NCBI RefSeq assembly: GCF_006974105.1
Contig: NZ_CP036282.1
Location: forward strand, 2,666,001 to 2,730,000
Source of the DNA: Rhodoferax aquaticus
GTDB lineage: Bacteria > Pseudomonadota > Gammaproteobacteria > Burkholderiales > Burkholderiaceae_C
Direction of reading: 5' to 3'
Length of the DNA: 64,000 nt
The translations under genes and the position numbers were made by a program. The notes beneath the pieces were generated by a model. The model was not told where the DNA came from. It searched no databases and saw only the letters and a program-made list of their open reading frames with translations. Shown here piece by piece: positions 5,301 through 45,429 of this stretch (within the stretch, counting starts at the first letter, position 1; the number at the start of each line of letters is the position of its first letter).

Positions 5301-5891
5301 TCAACGGCGATCCACCAAAGCGTGGGCGATCGTGCCCAGATCCACATACTCCAGCTCGCTGCCAACAGGCACACCACGTGCTAAGCGCGTAGGTGTTAGC
5401 CCCCTGGCCTTCAAGCCTTCGGCGATGACGTGGGCCGTGGCTTCACCTTCAGCGGTAAAGTTTGTGGCCAAGATAACCTCACGCACAAGGCCATCGCTGG
5501 CTCGATCAAATAATTTTTTAAGACCAATGTCTTTGGGCCCCACTCCATCCAGCGGACTTAGTTTGCCCATCAACACAAAGTACAAGCCTTTGTAGGCATT
5601 GGTGCGCTCCAGCGCAGACTGGTCCGCTGGCGTTTCCACCACGCACAATTGCGAATGGTCGCGCCTAGGGTCTAGGCAGGTGGAACAGATGACATCTTCA
5701 GTAAAGGTGTGACAGCGCTCGCAATGGTGCACATGGCCTGCCGCATCCTGCAAAGCACGAGACAAAAGCTGGGCCCCAGGGCGGTCATGCTGCAAAAGAT
5801 GAAAGGCCATGCGCTGCGCTGACTTGACCCCCACCCCAGGTAAGCGGCGCAGGGCTTGGATCAGCGCATCCAGCGCATTCGTTTCAGCCAT
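5301..5891 (-). CDS. recR: Recombination mediator protein RecR
   Basis: A 196-residue protein of the RecFOR pathway that helps load RecA on single-stranded DNA gaps. It has the helix-hairpin-helix region ([17 protein letters not shown]), the four-cysteine zinc motif ([16 protein letters not shown]) and a Toprim domain ([26 protein letters not shown]). The ATG at 5891 is preferred over a TTG one codon earlier. It lies 21 bases after ybaB in the conserved dnaX-ybaB-recR operon. Confidence 0.96.
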
Positions 5892-6297: not shown

Positions 6298-8316
6298 CTA
6301 TGCCATGGGCTTGATCGAACCGGGCACGATTTTCGCGCCAAAGTCACGCATCATGGATTGCACAAATGGGTCATCAAAAATAATTTTCTCAGCGGCCAGT
6401 TGACGTTCAGCCGCTGCCGCTGCATTGCGCTTGCCAGGGCTATCCGTCACCCGCCCTACTTCCACTACCAGCTTCACCACATGGCCCGCCGCATGCAAGG
6501 CGTTGGTCAGCCGTTCACGGCTCCCAGGTTGGTTCAGCGACTCGCGCTCCACGCGCAACACCCATTGGTCCACGTCACGCGCCAACAGCTGAGAATGCAA
6601 GGCTAGCTCTCGGGTAAAGGCCGCAATGGACTCTTCTTTGATCAGCTGCTGCACCGTTGCATGCCAAAAATCTCCCTCTTGCGTGGGCTGAACCACAGAA
6701 CTTGTCTGGGTCGAAGCTGCATCGGCGCGCCCCTCCGATTGCTCACGCACCGGAAATGCTACAACTTTGGTAGCGGACTGCACAATTCCCATGGGCGCAG
6801 AAGCCGCATTTGATTCTGAACCGCTGCCTCGCACTTGCAGCAAATGCCCCGGCGGCAATTCCATGCCCTGCTGCGGATGACTTGGCGGCTCAGAATCTAA
6901 AACGATTGGCGCGGACCGTGCTGGCTCCGCGCGGCCTGATGAGGCAACGGGGGGGGCGTCCTCCCAAGGCTGCACCACCCGGCTACTGGCCGAATTGACC
7001 CCAAATGCGGGAGGCGCAGAGCCTGCTGCCGGAACCGCAGCGGCCCCCACACCCAACTGCGCCAGCGGTGTTTGAGGTGCTGGAGCCTGTGTCTGATGTG
7101 GTGCAGCTACGTGCTGGCTGGGCCCACTAGCAACTGCTAGAGTTTTTTTTTCCACCACGCCGACTTGAGGCTTCATCGGGGAAGTGCCTGCTTCCGCAGG
7201 CTTGAAGGCTAGCAATCGCAACAGCACCATGGTGAGCGCTGCATACTCGTCTGGCGCAAGACCTAAATCTGCACGCCCATGCAAGCAAATGCTGTAGAGC
7301 AGCTGGGTCTCATCCCTAGGCAACAGGGCAGCTAGGCGCTGCGTCTGAGCCGCCTCTGGGTCACTGTCATCCTCGCCCGCGTCTGCTACGGGGGTACCTG
7401 CACGGGCCAGTGTCTGGACTACGGCCATGCGCTGCAAAACCGTCGCCATTTCTTCCAAGGTAGATCCCGCGCTCAGCCCATTCAGGCGCAACTCTTCGGA
7501 TGTTTCTACCACTGTGCGGCCATCCCCCACCGCAAGCGCCTCTATCAGGCGAAACACATAGGACCGGTCTACGCTACCCAGCATTTGGCGTACCGACGCC
7601 TCAAGCAAATGGCCGTTCCCAAAGGCTATAGCTTGGTCTGTCAGCGACAGGGCGTCGCGCATAGAACCGCGGGCAGCACGCGCCAGCAAGCGCAAAGCTT
7701 GCACCTCCGACGGCACATTCTCCACACCCAGCACGCGGGTCAGGTGTTCACGAATGGTCTCTGGTGCCATGGGCCGCAAATTGAACTGCAGACAACGGGA
7801 CAAGACCGTCACTGGCACTTTTTGTGGATCAGTCGTCGCCAAAACGAACTTCAGGTACTCAGGGGGCTCTTCCAGTGTTTTCAACATGGCGTTAAACGCC
7901 GTGTTGGTGAGCATGTGCACCTCGTCAATCATGAACACTTTGAATCGGCCTTGCACAGGCTTGTAAACCGCTTGCTCTAGCAGGGCCTGTACCTCGTCGA
8001 CACCCCGGTTGGAAGCCGCGTCCAGCTCGGTGTAATCCACAAACCGTCCACTATCAATATCAGAGCAGGCTTGGCACACGCCACAAGGGGTTGCAGTAAT
8101 TCCGCCGTTTCCATCAACGCCTTGGCAGTTCAAGGACTTAGCCAAAATACGTGAAACGGTGGTTTTACCGACTCCACGGGTCCCAGTGAACAAGTAGGCG
8201 TGGTGCAAGCGCTGGGTTGTCAGGGCATTGGTCAGTGCCTGAACTACATGGTCCTGCCCCACCATCTCGGTGAAATTGCGAGGGCGGTACTTGCGAGCGA
8301 GCACGAGATAAGACAT
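6298..8316 (-). CDS. dnaX: DNA polymerase III subunits tau/gamma
   Basis: A 672-residue clamp-loader ATPase. The Walker A motif GTRGVGKTT lies at residues 45-53, a zinc module at residues 64-84 (NCQ...PCGVCQAC), followed by the Walker B region IDEVHML and the SRC motif at sensor 1. Domain III ends near residue 380, then a Pro/Ala/Gln-rich linker leads to the tau-specific C-terminus that contacts the polymerase and helicase. Residues E389-K390-K391 are encoded inside a run of nine A bases, a likely slippage site giving a short gamma form (separate entry). It heads the dnaX-ybaB-recR operon. Confidence 0.97.
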   Translation of the reverse strand: MSYLVLARKYRPRNFTEMVGQDHVVQALTNALTTQRLHHAYLFTGTRGVGKTTVSRILAKSLNCQGVDGNGGITATPCGVCQACSDIDSGRFVDYTELDAASNRGVDEVQALLEQAVYKPVQGRFKVFMIDEVHMLTNTAFNAMLKTLEEPPEYLKFVLATTDPQKVPVTVLSRCLQFNLRPMAPETIREHLTRVLGVENVPSEVQALRLLARAARGSMRDALSLTDQAIAFGNGHLLEASVRQMLGSVDRSYVFRLIEALAVGDGRTVVETSEELRLNGLSAGSTLEEMATVLQRMAVVQTLARAGTPVADAGEDDSDPEAAQTQRLAALLPRDETQLLYSICLHGRADLGLAPDEYAALTMVLLRLLAFKPAEAGTSPMKPQVGVVEKKTLAVASGPSQHVAAPHQTQAPAPQTPLAQLGVGAAAVPAAGSAPPAFGVNSASSRVVQPWEDAPPVASSGRAEPARSAPIVLDSEPPSHPQQGMELPPGHLLQVRGSGSESNAASAPMGIVQSATKVVAFPVREQSEGRADAASTQTSSVVQPTQEGDFWHATVQQLIKEESIAAFTRELALHSQLLARDVDQWVLRVERESLNQPGSRERLTNALHAAGHVVKLVVEVGRVTDSPGKRNAAAAAERQLAAEKIIFDDPFVQSMMRDFGAKIVPGSIKPMA
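7127..7151 (-). promoter_or_regulatory. Predicted slippage/frameshift site in dnaX
   Basis: In the coding strand nine consecutive A bases (7151-7143) spell the end of GAA, AAA, AAA and the first base of ACT. They are followed two bases later by a short inverted repeat (CTAGC, 4-base loop, GCTAG; 7140-7127). A -1 shift after K391 adds five residues (NSSSC) and stops at TAG; a +1 shift adds one Leu and stops at TAG. Both give a product of 392-396 residues holding only the ATPase and domain III, the size of a gamma subunit. A9 runs in dnaX are known slippage sites in Thermus; use here is inferred. Confidence 0.6.
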
Positions 8317-41888: not shown

Positions 41889-42085
41889 GTCAGTTATCAC
41901 CATCGTAGAAAGCCAGCGCATGCGGCTGGCAGGTCATAAAAAGGCACAGGTGCCTGCTCGGTTTGGCCTGCCATGGTATGGCGGAATGAATACCTGTGGG
42001 GCGGGTTGAGGCAAAAGGCGGCTATGGGCTGCAAGCGGTCGGTCAGATTTCCAGAAGACGGTCATTGAAACGCTACGACTTCACC

Positions 42086-42145
42086 CATTAACGTTTGAGG
42101 CCAGGCGACGCCGAAGGCGGTCGCCTCTGGGCCGACCTGTTAAGG
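42086..42145 (-). other. attC1, distal integron recombination site
   Basis: 60 bp, read on the minus strand: CCTTAAC at the left, GTTAATG at the right, with AGGTCGGCCCAGAGGCGACC and its near complement inside, forming a long imperfect hairpin. The outer core departs from GTTRRRY at one base, as expected where the last cassette joins non-cassette DNA. It follows cassette ORF 42152-42655. Confidence 0.75.
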
Positions 42146-42151
42146 TGCATG

Positions 42152-42655
42152 CTAGTCCAATTGGGCATATGGGGCCAACTGCCATAGCCGCTCTGGAATC
42201 GGCTCGAACCCCGGCAAGGGAAGTTGGCCAAAAGGACCAACGAGAGTGCCCGTTTCTGGCCAGCCGTGAACATAAAACGCCACTCGGAACGCACTTGCTG
42301 CAGGCAAATCAGAGGCGTCCTCCCCAATGTGTCCTTGTCCATCGACCGTCAGATATGCAGGCTCCCATGCTACTGAGGATGTCTCCTTCTCAGAAATCGA
42401 GAACGGATCGAACTCGCCATCATGGTCTTCTACCAACACTTCAAAGAGTGCGGCTGCATTCAATGAAGCTTCAAGCTCTTCGGGAAGTTCTGCCGCCCGT
42501 TCCATCAGTTCTTCTTCGGACCAAGACTTCGCCAAGCCGCGTTGCTGAAGTTCGTGAATCCCATCAACGAAGTCCCTAACATCGTTGGCGACCCAGGACG
42601 CTAGCCGCTCCGGCGAGAGCCTAGGGAGATATGCGCCAAGAACCGTGAGCCGCAT
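42152..42655 (-). CDS. Integron cassette ORF, unknown acidic protein
   Basis: A 167-residue acidic, soluble protein (MRLTVLGAYLPRLSPERLASWVANDVRDFVDGI). No signal peptide, membrane segment or known motif. It is flanked by attC1 downstream and attC2 upstream, with only a short gap between the attC2 core and the ATG and no Shine-Dalgarno. That makes it the last (fourth) gene of the array, expected to be weakly expressed from the distant cassette promoter. Confidence 0.7.
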   Translation of the reverse strand: MRLTVLGAYLPRLSPERLASWVANDVRDFVDGIHELQQRGLAKSWSEEELMERAAELPEELEASLNAAALFEVLVEDHDGEFDPFSISEKETSSVAWEPAYLTVDGQGHIGEDASDLPAASAFRVAFYVHGWPETGTLVGPFGQLPLPGFEPIPERLWQLAPYAQLD

Positions 42656-42662
42656 CGCTGCA

Positions 42663-42749
42663 CCTTAACGTTGGAGGCCATCGGCATGCAACCTTTGCCG
42701 CGCAGTGGCAGCCTTCGGTTGCATATCCGCGTGGGCCGACCAGTTAGAT
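42663..42749 (-). other. attC2
   Basis: 87 bp on the minus strand, from ATCTAAC (fits RYYYAAC) to GTTAAGG (one mismatch to GTTRRRY). Inner arms TGGTCGGCCCACGC and GATGGCCTCCAAC, and the central GCAACCGAAGGC/GGTTGC pairing, give the usual folded-bottom-strand hairpin. It directly follows the stop of the ORF at 42756. Confidence 0.85.
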
Positions 42750-42755
42750 TGCGCA

Positions 42756-43100
42756 TTACGGTGCATTTGCTCCGCACCCTTCAAACTTGCAGTTGGCGTC
42801 CTGACCAGCCTGAATTAGGTAGTCGACCCACTTCAGTAGCTGCGCCTCGTTCCAGGCGATCGCGCCAGTTGAGCCGGTCACTGTGTAGCGCTTCTTCAAG
42901 AAACCCCGGCTCTGCACTTCGATCGGATAGGTAGACAGTGTTTCCTTGAGCGCCTCGACAGCCGCCTTACTTGGCGCTGAAAAGGAAAAGTCGAAGTTGA
43001 CTAACGACTCCTCTGTCGTACCGAGTTCACTTAGGCGCGTCCACACTGCCGCTGTGCGTACCAAGTGTCCTATTCGGAATTCTTCGAAGCTGTACGTCAT
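42756..43100 (-). CDS. Integron cassette ORF, RraB-like (ribonuclease E inhibitor-like) protein
   Basis: A 114-residue soluble protein. The stretch SLVNFDFSFSAPSKAAVEALKETLST followed by YTVTG and KFEGCGA resembles the alpha/beta RraB fold, whose members inhibit RNase E; the conserved hydrophobic and Ala pattern matches, but this rests on eye comparison. It is the third cassette, bounded by attC2 and attC3. Many cassette proteins of this size are orphans, so the assignment is tentative. Confidence 0.5.
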   Translation of the reverse strand: MTYSFEEFRIGHLVRTAAVWTRLSELGTTEESLVNFDFSFSAPSKAAVEALKETLSTYPIEVQSRGFLKKRYTVTGSTGAIAWNEAQLLKWVDYLIQAGQDANCKFEGCGANAP

Positions 43101-43110
43101 GAGTGAAGCA

Positions 43111-43197
43111 ATCTAACGTTGGCGCTGTACGGCGCGCATCACGCGCCGCGAAGCGGCATTTTTATGATGGGTGTCCGTGACGAGCAACATGTTAAGC
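43111..43197 (-). other. attC3
   Basis: 87 bp on the minus strand, from GCTTAAC to GTTAGAT, both fitting the RYYYAAC / GTTRRRY cores. The arms ATGTTGCTCGTCACGG and CGCCAAC surround GCCGCTTCGCGGC, a strong apical hairpin. The TAA stop of the adjacent ORF (43192) lies inside the left core. Confidence 0.88.
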
Positions 43198-43542
43198 CTC
43201 ACGTCGTTCCACCAAGGAAAGAAACTCATCTTGAAGTGCCCCCGTGTGTTGCTGCCCATCACCATCCACAAGTGATAGCGACAAAAATTCTCCGCCGAGT
43301 TGAGTACTTCCGTCGATGGCGCCGCAAATTGTGGATATGGCATCAATTGCAGATTGCCGCGCAAACTGCAACAAAGTTTCTCGTTGTTCGGGTGTCAATG
43401 TGCGAGCCAGCGCAATGACCTTTCGCCAATGCTCATCCTTTACCGCGTCAAGAGGCTCTTTTTCAATCAACCCGCGATAGAAGGAAATGTTGTCTTCGCA
43501 TGCATCTTTGAGCAACGATTGACAGAGGTCGTGCGTCTTCAT
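43192..43542 (-). CDS. Integron cassette ORF of unknown function
   Basis: A 116-residue, mostly helical soluble protein (MKTHDLCQSLLKDACEDNISFYRGLIEKEP). No known motif. The stop codon overlaps the attC3 core, and the start is only 11 bases from the core of attC4, leaving no room for its own promoter: typical cassette compactness. It is the second cassette of the array. Confidence 0.7.
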   Translation of the reverse strand: MKTHDLCQSLLKDACEDNISFYRGLIEKEPLDAVKDEHWRKVIALARTLTPEQRETLLQFARQSAIDAISTICGAIDGSTQLGGEFLSLSLVDGDGQQHTGALQDEFLSLVERREA

Positions 43543-43553
43543 GATTGAGTGAG

Positions 43554-43640
43554 GTTTAACGTAAAAATGACCGGTCCACCAACACTCGCGGCAAAGCCGC
43601 CTCCTGCTGTTGTGGGTCCGTGTCGATTGGCATGTTAAGT
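43554..43640 (-). other. attC4
   Basis: 87 bp on the minus strand, from ACTTAAC to GTTAAAC (both perfect cores). GGACCCACAACA pairs with TGTTGGTGGACC, and GGCGGCTTTGCCGC forms the apical loop. The TAA stop of the ORF at 43635 lies inside the left core. It separates the first and second cassettes. Confidence 0.9.
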
Positions 43641-44030
43641 GTCATCCCTTTCCCAAGGCGGATGTCTTTCGGGAGCGTCTTCCTGATTTCCCCAGATCAA
43701 AAGGACAACCGGGCTGACCGAAAGGTGTAAAGGCTGCACGCCTTCACGAAGGAAACTGATGTCAATTCGAACCCCTTCCTCATCCTCGGTCGCGGAGAGT
43801 TCGGCAACGTCTCCTAGCGCCAAGCGAAAGATACGCGTCGGATTTTTCGCCACCACGGACAGCTGAATCTCTGCAGCCCAAGGCAGCACCTGCAGGGTGA
43901 TACGGTCATTGTCCGTCTCGTAGGTAACCTCGTAACTTACAACACCGAATTCCGGGGGGCCCGTCTCCATGGTTGGCTCGCAGCCGAGCATTTGAGCCAG
44001 CGCCTCAATGGAAGGTAGAGTAGCAAGCAT
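43635..44030 (-). CDS. First integron cassette ORF, unknown function
   Basis: A 131-residue soluble acidic protein (MLATLPSIEALAQMLGCEPT), probably a beta-rich fold (YEVTYETDNDRITLQVLPWAAEIQLSVVAK). No known motif. The ATG is six bases from the attI-like core and has no Shine-Dalgarno, but it lies seven bases after the stop of a 20-codon ORF inside attI. Translation may be coupled. It is the promoter-proximal cassette and should be the best expressed. Confidence 0.75.
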   Translation of the reverse strand: MLATLPSIEALAQMLGCEPTMETGPPEFGVVSYEVTYETDNDRITLQVLPWAAEIQLSVVAKNPTRIFRLALGDVAELSATEDEEGVRIDISFLREGVQPLHLSVSPVVLLIWGNQEDAPERHPPWERDDT

Positions 44031-44035
44031 GTGAG

Positions 44036-44098
44036 ACTTAACGTAATGTCCAGAGCAAAACTTGCTCTATAAGCTGGCCGCTGCTCCATAAGTTGGAC
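44036..44098 (-). other. attI-like integron insertion site
   Basis: Read on the minus strand the site ends in the perfect core GTTAAGT (44042-44036), where the first cassette joins. At 44091-44080 it carries TTATGGAGCAGC, identical over 12 bases to the TTATGGAGCAGC of class 1 integron attI1 as I remember it. The outer GTCCAAC core is only partly complementary to GTTAAGT, and the interior does not fold like an attC. No intI gene lies beside it: 44101-44283 holds only the promoter and an unassigned stretch, then a TipAS gene. Confidence 0.65.
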
Positions 44099-44100
44099 AT
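44038..44100 (-). CDS. 20-codon leader ORF spanning attI
   Basis: An ATG at 44100, with AGGAG six bases upstream (44111-44107), opens 20 codons (MSNLWSSGQL...). They end at the TAA inside the attI core, seven bases before the first cassette's ATG. It parallels ORF-11 of class 1 integrons, which ends in the attI1 core and enhances translation of cassettes lacking a ribosome site. This is the only good Shine-Dalgarno in the array. Function is inferred. Confidence 0.6.
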   Translation of the reverse strand: MSNLWSSGQLIEQVLLWTLR

Positions 44101-44153
44101 GAAAAACTCCTAAAGATGGCTTGCAGTCTTGCTTGCGGAGGTTTTGCCTGAAA

Positions 44154-44181
44154 TTTATACAGTTATAAAAACATCGACAAA
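44154..44181 (-). promoter_or_regulatory. Predicted cassette promoter (Pc)
   Basis: On the minus strand TTGTCG (44180-44175) and TATAAA (44159-44154) are 15 bases apart; shifting to TTTGTC (44181-44176) gives 16. It would start transcription near 44147, towards attI and the four cassettes. Confidence 0.5.
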
Positions 44182-44283
44182 CCCCGCAGGCTTTTTTCGA
44201 GCGATTCTAGCCACGGACAGGCCAATTTTTACAAATGCGAGCGCCAGTTGTATGACTGCAATCGCGGCAAAGCAGCCCAAAAC

Positions 44284-44670
44284 TTAACCCAAATTCCCCA
44301 TCGCATACGCATACACCGCATCACCCAAAAACTCCACCATCTGGGGGTGGTAGGTGTTGTGGAAGTCGCGCATGGCGGGGTTTTCGCTGTAGAACAGGCC
44401 CATGCCGATGTAGGCATCACGGCTGGGGGTGTAGAAGCGGCTGGCCAGGGCGTAGTGCTGGGCCATGAGGGCTTGCACTTCGGCGGACTCGGGTGCTTGC
44501 ATTCCCACGAGTGGGGCTAGCACTTTGTAGAAGGCGTCCCAGTCGGCGTGGGCTTGGGCTTTGTCTACGTGTGACCAATGGTTGGTGGCTTGCAGGGAGC
44601 GGGTTTGCTCGGTTTGCATGGCGTTGCGGCACGCGTCTAGTGTTTGCGCGCTGGCGTCTTTGATTCCCAT
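44284..44670 (-). CDS. TipAS-like antibiotic-recognition domain protein
   Basis: A 128-residue all-helical protein. ADWDAFYKVLAPLV, AEVQALMAQHYALASRFYTPSRDAYIGMGLFYSENPAMRDFHNTYHPQMVEFLGDAVYAYA fits the TipAS/SkgA effector fold, which binds thiopeptide-type or other ligands. Here the MerR DNA-binding domain is absent, so it is a stand-alone domain. It ends about 100 bases upstream of the integron promoter, reading towards it. No attC flanks it. Confidence 0.7.
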   Translation of the reverse strand: MGIKDASAQTLDACRNAMQTEQTRSLQATNHWSHVDKAQAHADWDAFYKVLAPLVGMQAPESAEVQALMAQHYALASRFYTPSRDAYIGMGLFYSENPAMRDFHNTYHPQMVEFLGDAVYAYAMGNLG

Positions 44671-44736
44671 GGTGTGGCTTTTTCTACTCGTTGTTATTGG
44701 ATAGATGTGACAGCGAACAGCACTGGCTGTTGCGTC

Positions 44737-44766
44737 TCAAGCTTAAGCTAGAAGCTTGATTCTTTT
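44737..44766 (+). terminator. Hairpin with T-tract between TipAS and parE genes
   Basis: TCAAGCTT pairs with AAGCTTGA around a 7-base loop, followed by TTCTTTTTT. The T-tract is on the plus strand, although both neighbours are on the minus strand, so it would end antisense or readthrough transcription. Confidence 0.45.
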
Positions 44767-44799
44767 TTGCAGGCGCATGGCCCGCCCAGAATTATTTCC

Positions 44800-45096
44800 C
44801 TACAAGCTGTTGTAACCGGACTCGCGCTGATGCCTTAGCGCAAGCACCAATATGCGGTCGATGTGCGGCAAAAACCGATACAGCGCCAGATACCCAGTTC
44901 GCCCCCTTGAAATGACCAACTCTCGCTGTCCGAAGTGCACCTTGCGGCCCATCTCGGGGTGCTGAACCAAAATCTCCAGCGCGTCGAAAATCAGTGCGGC
45001 AGTGCCAAGCGCAGCTTGCGGATCGGTTTCAAGCAAGAAATCGCTAAGTCTTTCCAAATCAAGCAAGGCTTGATCGCTGTAGACCAGCTCAGTCAT
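44800..45096 (-). CDS. RelE/ParE family toxin
   Basis: A 98-residue toxin-like protein (MTELVYSDQALLDLERLSDFLLE) with the ParE pattern HPEMGRKVHFGQRELVISRGRTGYLALYRFLPHIDRILVLALRHQRESGY. ParE-type members poison DNA gyrase. Its ATG overlaps the upstream antitoxin by 8 bases. A truncated relative lies at 48721-48812. Confidence 0.9.
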   Translation of the reverse strand: MTELVYSDQALLDLERLSDFLLETDPQAALGTAALIFDALEILVQHPEMGRKVHFGQRELVISRGRTGYLALYRFLPHIDRILVLALRHQRESGYNSL

Positions 45097-45415
45097 GGGC
45101 TGGCTTCATCGGCTTGCGTGTATCCAATGGCTGGGCCTCTGGCCTGCCAGTGGTGTCACCCGTCTTGCCGCGCTTTACGCGGGCCAAGAGGTAGGCTTTG
45201 ACATCGGCACCACCAAACACGGTGTTGGTCTGCAAGGTTTGCTGATAAGACGCGTCACCATCTGCATAAAACTGTTGGCGTACCAGCGCGTCTTCCATGG
45301 CAGATTGCAAGGTATCCACCATGAGCGCGTGGGCCGTCTTGCCCTCAAACGCTGCAACTTGGGCAATGGTGGCCTTCAAGGCATCCGGGAGTTTGAGCGA
45401 AGTAGTGGCTGTCAT
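45089..45415 (-). CDS. RHH-type antitoxin
   Basis: A 108-residue antitoxin. The ribbon-helix-helix N-terminus TTSLKLPDALKATIAQVAAFEGKTAHALMVDTLQSAME would bind DNA; the C-terminal part FYADGDASYQQTLQTNTVFGGADVKAYL wraps the toxin. The ATG at 45415 has GGAGG five bases upstream. It precedes and overlaps the toxin gene, the normal order for autoregulated pairs. Confidence 0.88.
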   Translation of the reverse strand: MTATTSLKLPDALKATIAQVAAFEGKTAHALMVDTLQSAMEDALVRQQFYADGDASYQQTLQTNTVFGGADVKAYLLARVKRGKTGDTTGRPEAQPLDTRKPMKPAHD

Positions 45416-45429
45416 GGCATCCTCCAAAA

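Follow-up and report, generated by a model that had tools for sequence, protein, structure and literature searches.

An integrase-less, attI-headed integron array with four cassettes in Rhodoferax aquaticus and a near-identical platform with other cassettes elsewhere in the genome

The DNA analysed here is a window of 64,000 nucleotides (G000:C1:2666001-2730000) from the genome of Rhodoferax aquaticus, which is a single contig of 4,737,690 bases (completeness 100). Between yghU and a gene for a TipAS-domain protein, the window carries an integron platform that holds four gene cassettes and no integrase gene. We refer to it as element A (42021..44275); its limits are those of the stretches that it has in common with a second locus of the same genome, B (L067), and all of its features lie on the minus strand. 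The array is headed by a 5' module (44032..44275), of which 241 of 244 bases are the same as in G000:C1:311297-311540, and which comprises an upstream stretch, a leader open reading frame (ORF) and the recombination site attI. The upstream stretch contains a TAGAAT hexamer (44204..44209), a candidate -10 element of a cassette promoter, and a Shine-Dalgarno-like AGGAG (44107..44111) stands six bases ahead of the leader ATG. The leader ORF (MSNLWSSGQLIEQVLLWTLR, 44038..44100) spans the attI boxes (44053..44086), putative integrase-binding repeats with direct GAGC copies at 44083-44086 and 44064-44067 and an inverted GCTC at 44053-44056. The attI core GTTAAGT (44036..44042), placed by the cassette-end test described below, is the entry point of the first cassette.

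The four cassette units abut and measure 482, 443, 448 and 577 bp. Their ORFs encode 131 (43635..44030), 116 (43192..43542), 114 (42756..43100) and 167 amino acids (42152..42655), and the start codon of the first lies 7 bases past the leader stop. Each is followed by its own attC site, at 43554..43640, 43111..43197, 42663..42749 and, for the short attC of cassette 4, 42086..42145 (coordinates run from the start of R'' to the end of R'). The array closes with a 3' module (42021..42094) that contains GACCGCTTGCAGCCCAT and agrees in 73 of 74 bases with G000:C1:314961-315034, the sole mismatch being third from the outer end. The initial annotation had described four short ORFs of no or uncertain function, which is what we found: no function was assigned to cassettes 1, 2 and 4, for which Pfam gave no hint, and cassette 3 had a sub-threshold likeness to RraB (E 0.013) only.

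Two independent approaches were used to judge the attC sites; they replaced a folding-based attC scanner, which had found 2 of the 4 sites along with several chance sites. The first, the cassette-end test, is independent of folding and compares the start of a cassette (GTTRRRY...) with the R'' end of the attC belonging to that cassette; the two must be reverse complements because they join in the free cassette circle. All four cassettes of A passed, at 10, 11, 10 and 11 of 12 bases. When the test was run on the 6 kb around the array, it gave two extra rows, each reusing a start or an attC already counted, and the background amounted to 2 raw matches in 56 kb of the window and 2 in 20 mononucleotide shuffles of 6 kb. 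The second approach relied on covariance models. Because 13 of the 30 attC sites in model R1 come from this genome (the other 17 from relatives), a model R2 was built without them, from 16 of the 17 attC of relatives (L081 omitted). None of the four sites failed under R2, which scored attC 1 to 4 at 86.0, 72.9, 60.9 and 34.3 bits (E 5e-20 to 2e-6) and found no fifth attC in the window up to E 10. The four attC sites read from the letters in the initial annotation are thus upheld both by a model made from relatives only and by the pairing of the cassette ends.

Covariation among the 30 attC was strong on 4 of 5 measures. Paired cells made up 74.8% against 62.8% after shuffling, and two-sided changes numbered 96 against 42.6 (in both cases 0 of 500 shuffles as high), whereas the number of pair types, 45 against 42.3, did not exceed chance (106 of 500). 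The structure underlying these counts was set by hand from the fold of one site of the window, since RNAalifold on the MAFFT alignment yielded 0 pairs. The thought that the attC-like sites are chance palindromes between unrelated genes has the absence of Rfam matches (none up to E 1 in 40-46 kb) as its only support. It is refuted by the scores of the independent model, the covariation, the pairing of cassette ends and the finding of cassette 1, whole, in another array (see below), and its probability is practically negligible. Element A is confirmed as a genuine four-cassette integron array.

As the initial annotation had stated, there is no intI between yghU and the TipAS gene, and the search of the whole one-contig genome was likewise empty at the cut-off of TIGR02249. 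Sub-threshold stretches of this profile fall in three tyrosine recombinases, one above the XerD cut-off, one XerC-like and just below cut-off, and one below every cut-off; an IntI query of the Rhodoferax group returned these three again, plus a match at E 0.07. In the comparison set of 120 genomes, TIGR02249 exceeded its cut-off in 37, this one not included, and intI was present at E 1e-60 or better in 39, of which 15 are among the 71 same-genus relatives. Since the genome has no integrase today, its arrays should be frozen unless one arrives.

The attI-like site that had been noticed at the head of the array proved to have attI homologues that lie next to intI in sister species (L075, L077, L078, L079 and L080). 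A's attI thus heads its array as in a complete integron. The stretch 44031-44290 matches 23 of the 120 genomes including its own, that is 22 of 119 relatives, all of the same genus, and several of these matches span the upstream part alone. Nine of the 22 matching relatives have intI and 13 do not; intI was seen beside this attI type in four of the nine, G003, G009, G022 and G032. The 22 include G012 and G026, in which no attI core was found. G048, a one-contig genome, has two attI modules and no intI at E 1e-60, and G009 has one intI-linked attI together with four modules without intI. In the arrays of two species, L077:8361-8530 and L081:4715-4826 have in common a short unit between the inverted repeats GAGGCTGTAAAAAAA ... 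TTTTTTTACAGCCTC, with no ORF noticed, which is possibly an ORF-less cassette.

The presence of this attI bears on one account of arrays that lack an integrase, namely that an integrase placed the cassettes at a chromosomal site other than attI. Such off-target insertion is one of three published routes to clusters of attC sites lacking integron-integrases (CALINs), according to the accessible part of the source (PMC8618304), and it may fit four other places in this genome where the attI model had no match in the examined stretches, namely cluster D and the lone attC of E, F and G. For A it is refuted by an attI with repeats and leader ORF that is homologous to the intI-adjoining attI of sister species, and we regard it as very unlikely.

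The leader frame of A is 20 codons long and ends with CGT; the codon that follows, TAA, comes from the first bases of the inserted cassette. As the core is GTTRRRY, the codon after the leader is always TRR (TAA, TAG, TGA or TGG). The junction reads CGT/TAA in A and B and CGT/TAG in C, a third platform of this genome; this arrangement is not seen in the fourth, H. A search of GTDB contigs for the attI leader pattern gave 27 stretches, titled Rhodoferax, Comamonadaceae or beta-proteobacterial metagenome-assembled genomes (MAGs), two of which, Paraburkholderia L135 and Burkholderia L142, resemble chance gene starts. The anatomy of the leader and of the ORF behind it suggests that cassette 1 may be translationally coupled to the leader, and the upstream stretch of the 5' module probably holds the cassette promoter.

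None of the four attI modules in this genome (A, B, C and H) has an intI. Locus B (C1:311297-315034) lies 2.4 Mb from A on the contig and has six cassettes, all six passing the cassette-end test; one of its ORFs matches the WapI-like immunity family. The modules of A and B differ at 3 positions of 244 at the 5' end and 1 of 74 at the 3' end, while their flanks are unlike and they have no cassette in common (the best cross-match of cassette proteins in blastp was E 0.20). A and B descend from a single platform, as the agreement of both ends amid dissimilar flanks shows. Their cassettes are wholly different and were therefore loaded or replaced later than the split, within the roughly 1.3% divergence of the ends. 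Immediately behind array B, at L067:11128-11455 (G000:C1:315127-315454), we observed a fragment that resembles type II secretion protein F (Pfam T2SSF, E 1.7e-4, below cut-off), a 92% copy of C1:320348-320675, 5 kb further on.

C (L068) and H (L151) represent a second module type. The ORFs of C encode a BrnT toxin and two proteins just below cut-offs, one like a CopG-type antitoxin and the other GIY-YIG-like; C passes the cassette-end test in one of two cassettes (the second; the first fails at 10 of 12). H has an AlbA_2 ORF and a BrnT/BrnA pair, with degenerate attC. Counted at E below 0.01, R1 found 18 attC sites, four in A, six in B, two in C, three in D and one each in E, F and G; this is a lower bound, as just 150 of 2377 first-look candidates were scored. 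R2, beyond the four sites of A, finds 14 attC in six other loci of this genome at E up to 1. In cluster D (L095:7800-10500, G000:C1:807.8-810.5 kb) a GIY-YIG-like ORF and a toxin-antitoxin-like pair were seen by eye.

The initial annotation left the choice between an integron that had lost its integrase and a CALIN. Its first option is right as far as it goes and the second holds by the published rule, but the view needs widening, for it did not extend to the absence of intI from the whole genome, to the four attI modules or to the near-identical copy 2.4 Mb away with other cassettes. These results agree best with the view that integrase-less platforms were copied within genomes and were filled in trans by an integrase that is now absent from this genome, which we consider probable. 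A short module of upstream stretch, Shine-Dalgarno sequence, 20-codon leader ORF and attI would receive gene cassettes, and ribosomes that end the leader at the stop supplied by the cassette may begin again at the gene of the first cassette, 7 bases downstream. Such platforms would have been copied to several sites of the genome and loaded in trans by an integron integrase, either encoded by an intI elsewhere in the genome or transiently introduced. With the integrase then gone, the four cassettes of A would be expressible and not movable by the cell's own enzymes. We infer this order, copying, then loading, then loss of the integrase. For the loading, the simplest agent is an integrase that acts in trans, with homologous exchange of whole arrays as the main alternative.

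An attI core profile was applied to the collected loci, which gave 67 distinct modules, or 68 with A, whose core is identical to that of B. After 7 modules with fewer than 600 bases upstream had been set aside, 61 could be scored: 9 have long IntI homology upstream (some of it broken), 9 have an N-terminal intI stub and 43 have neither, so that modules without intI form the largest class of the collected set. By upstream sequence the 43 divide into 15 of type I, 7 of type II and 21 unclassed, with patterns that missed B; TAGAAT stands upstream in 10 of them, A and B counted. The three attI boxes are concordant in 7 of 9 long-intI, 3 of 9 stub and 21 of 43 intI-less modules, as GAGC/GAGC with inverted GCTC, as CCGC/CCGC/GCGG in other modules or as TCGC/TCGC/GCGA in L085; this agreement could reflect few attI lineages and not many events. 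The start, the frame (60 or 63 bases) and the openness of the leader are intact in all 9 long-intI modules, in 8 of 9 stub modules and in 22 of 43 without intI, and in 28 of these 39 intact modules the cassette provides the stop. The other 21 intI-less modules comprise 6 that could not be scored and 15, H included, that lack leader start, frame or openness.

The stub modules speak for a different history, simple decay, by which A, B, C and H were once complete integrons that each lost intI in place, their likeness being due to descent with nothing moved. Nine of the 61 modules keep an N-terminal stub (eight separate stubs, since L140-7848 was counted through the stub of a module 0.7 kb ahead), and a LexA-type box (CTG-N10-CAG) is found, as decay predicts, in 6 of 9 long-intI, 4 of 9 stub and 3 of 43 intI-less modules and in 3 of the 7 set aside. 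In addition, the inactivation of intI is common according to the parts of two papers that were available (PMC3108266, PMC12444791). However, A and B agree to 98-99% at both ends amid unrelated flanks and cassettes, so that at least this pair was copied. Besides, in genomes with several modules, 12 of 45 modules had their nearest neighbour in their own genome, against a mean of 1.7 and a maximum of 10 in label shuffles (n=2000); these pairs include A and B, L137 and L138 (95%, a stub and a long-intI module on two contigs of one MAG) and three PHCI modules. Simple decay therefore fails as the sole account for A and B, and overall it seems unlikely.

With regard to the stubs themselves, those of L021, L022, L119, L125, L126, L137, L140 and L144 end in a narrow range, residues 59-98 in query numbering, and by eye several contain within intI a TAGACY-N16-TATAGT-like stretch, a possible cassette promoter. 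In G044 (L073:5787-5872 on the plus and 6866-6952 on the minus strand) two attI modules face each other about 1 kb apart, with no IntI homology upstream.

A further explanation takes the ends of A and B as homology arms between which whole arrays were swapped with incoming DNA, by transformation or plasmids, with no integrase in the recipient. The conservation of both ends beside entirely different cassettes is what such an exchange would leave, and on a Simplicispira plasmid an ORF follows a stub-type attI module (68%, IntI residues 14-47 of the query). A Polaromonas plasmid has part of an attI, and these attI pieces make plasmids a possible route for the copying of platforms. On the other hand, the 3' module is limited to this genome among the 120 (A and B; a 25-base partial match in G037), so that donors with both ends were not seen, and the exchange leaves the arrival of the platform at two places unexplained. 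We hold it to be quite unlikely.

The cassettes themselves show traces of traffic. Protein relatives of cassettes 1, 3 and 4 come mostly from short metagenome contigs and a few from Reinekea, Motiliproteus, Noviherbaspirillum and Limnobacter, a scatter that, judged from sequence matches, is that expected of cassette genes; PADLOC found nothing in nine cassette proteins. In 0.75 Mb of sequence from 166 loci of other genomes, no protein match at E 1e-3 was obtained for cassettes 2 and 4; cassette 3 had only 29% identical proteins encoded just past the attI modules of L016 and L214, and cassette 1 had a 93% partial match in L064. The entire cassette 1 with its attC is present in L241 (G020:C256), at 86% over 487 bp with a 90% identical protein, as the third attC unit counted from an intact intI, which means that one cassette of A has been handled by an integrase-bearing integron. 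Cassettes 2, 3 and 4 are not found in the G020 stretch, and the intI there belongs to another branch (99% to L057). Of the prospect that a relative would hold the same cassettes beside intI, only the part concerning cassette 1 was borne out; the attI differs and the other three cassettes are not there. A 63-base stretch of a conjugative Polaromonas plasmid (NC_007949.1:99058-99120) is 90.5% identical to the attC of cassette 1.

Several points weigh against the reading of copied platforms loaded in trans. The matching integrase is absent from this genome, and the adjoining intI is seen in only 4 of the 9 matching relatives that have one; the attI beside the intI of G020 was not detected by the attI model of this group. 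Loading in trans was not observed, and homologous exchange between the conserved ends could also yield A and B. The set of modules is not random, because its loci came from similarity searches with A and C and from one pattern search, and most relatives are draft assemblies. The constraint on the leader is not universal, as the frame is shifted in H and in 15 of 43 intI-less modules the leader has lost start, frame or openness. Finally, the promoter that the initial annotation set at the head of the array was not borne out by a sigma-70 scan of 43900-44400, which gave 0 matches at the scan threshold.

We also considered a wider and more doubtful proposal, that the empty attI module (about 310 bp with leader and promoter) is a non-autonomous mobile element in Rhodoferax genomes and plasmids of related genera, that one integrase or a visiting one serves many such modules in trans, and that many CALINs are filled copies and not wrecks. 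If true, the genome would have a distributed integron instead of one array. Recurrence at unrelated places with both ends kept, as in miniature inverted-repeat transposable elements (MITEs) or other non-autonomous transposons, was seen for A and B only. Terminal inverted repeats were not found, the edges of A and B sharing only CTGC/GCAG, and no target duplication is visible at these edges. Among the loci returned there were no empty sites: yghU in relatives stood without the other flank of A, and likewise the gene after B. A plasmid search with the 3' module gave one match, at E 0.7, and the phage collection none at E 1e-5. The 3' module may resemble a Tn402-type end.

A candidate inverted-repeat boundary, the 5' edge motif GCAGCGGAAGCGGTCA recurring inverted at the 3' ends of arrays, was rejected, having no support in 22 arrays. 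The matrix, made from 15 of 17 typed instances (2 poorly aligned ones dropped) and compared with 3000 background segments, gave best p values of 0.034 (direct, cluster D) and 0.045 (inverted, A, away from the 3' end) among 44 tests; in its strict form, [GA]AAGC.G.C, the motif precedes 9 of the 43 intI-less modules, all of these in other genomes, compared with 5.4% of background segments. At the 3' side, a genome-wide search for the pattern GACCGCTTNNAGCCCAT with at most 1 mismatch gave three occurrences, two of them in the 3' modules of A and B and the third about 160 bp past the attC of G; the reversed control gave none. Another 3' end sequence is shared by C, F and an array of G032 (L068:7190-7270, L117 ~5577-5653 and L069:7165-7210), C and F being 73% alike over 79 bp.

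Just upstream of A, window positions 44284-45427 hold the TipAS-domain gene (128 amino acids), together with a toxin of the ParE type and an ORF that may be its partner. The TipAS protein occurs in 2 of 120 genomes, this one and, at 31% identity, one of another family, and it is so rare that this may be a small acquired stretch.

When compared with known systems, A falls under the CALIN rule of at least two attC and no intI (PMC9024848, in the part available), having no neighbouring integron integrase, and as a CALIN it is ordinary. The accessible text of the same survey counts 2961 CALINs and 2760 complete integrons, and the origins proposed there and in PMC8618304, likewise seen in part, are loss of intI, off-target insertion and rearrangement. 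The standard program does not detect attI outside class 1 (PMC9024848, same portion), and the origin of a CALIN is therefore usually guessed. The CALIN definition ignores attI, whereas A keeps attI, leader ORF and upstream stretch, and its genome has several platforms, two with common ends. In the present case attI can be recognised: within one genus, attI modules stand at the head of many arrays that lack an integrase, and some of these modules are duplicated within a genome. This makes the origin of CALINs testable, and the A/B pair in a genome free of intI is a clean case for the question of loading in trans. No title or abstract among the matches listed, which covered few subscription papers, concerned multi-copy integrase-less attI platforms, and within the literature searched we know of no described case of such an attI-headed platform with a leader resembling ORF-11 of class 1 integrons.

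The inactivated chromosomal integrons of Xanthomonas are alike in the lineage-specific loss of intI, the retention of arrays and the presence of CALINs at several loci; they differ in that the intI platform stands at one conserved locus (ilvD), and attI-headed copies elsewhere are not described in the available text of that paper (PMC12444791). Integrons mobilised by flanking MITE-like structures were reportedly described by Gillings in 2009. They have in common with our proposal the idea of a non-autonomous mobile unit with an integron, although A has shown no terminal repeats or target duplications. As for class 3, the intI of G022, which adjoins this attI type, has 68.9% DNA identity to intI3 over its length; the Rhodoferax attI model had no match in 501 bases of pUL3AT beside intI3, and the class 3 integron has intI3 whereas the window is without intI. 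The closest parallel to the leader is ORF-11 at attI1 of class 1 integrons, a short ORF with its own Shine-Dalgarno sequence across attI from which ribosomes restart on the first cassette gene, according to the accessible part of PMC8876359. ORF-11 has 11 codons, whereas the Rhodoferax leader has 20-21 and occurs both next to intI and on chromosomal platforms that lack an integrase. By its anatomy, the leader of A may couple to cassette 1 in the manner of ORF-11, and it extends the attI leader ORF beyond class 1 integrons.

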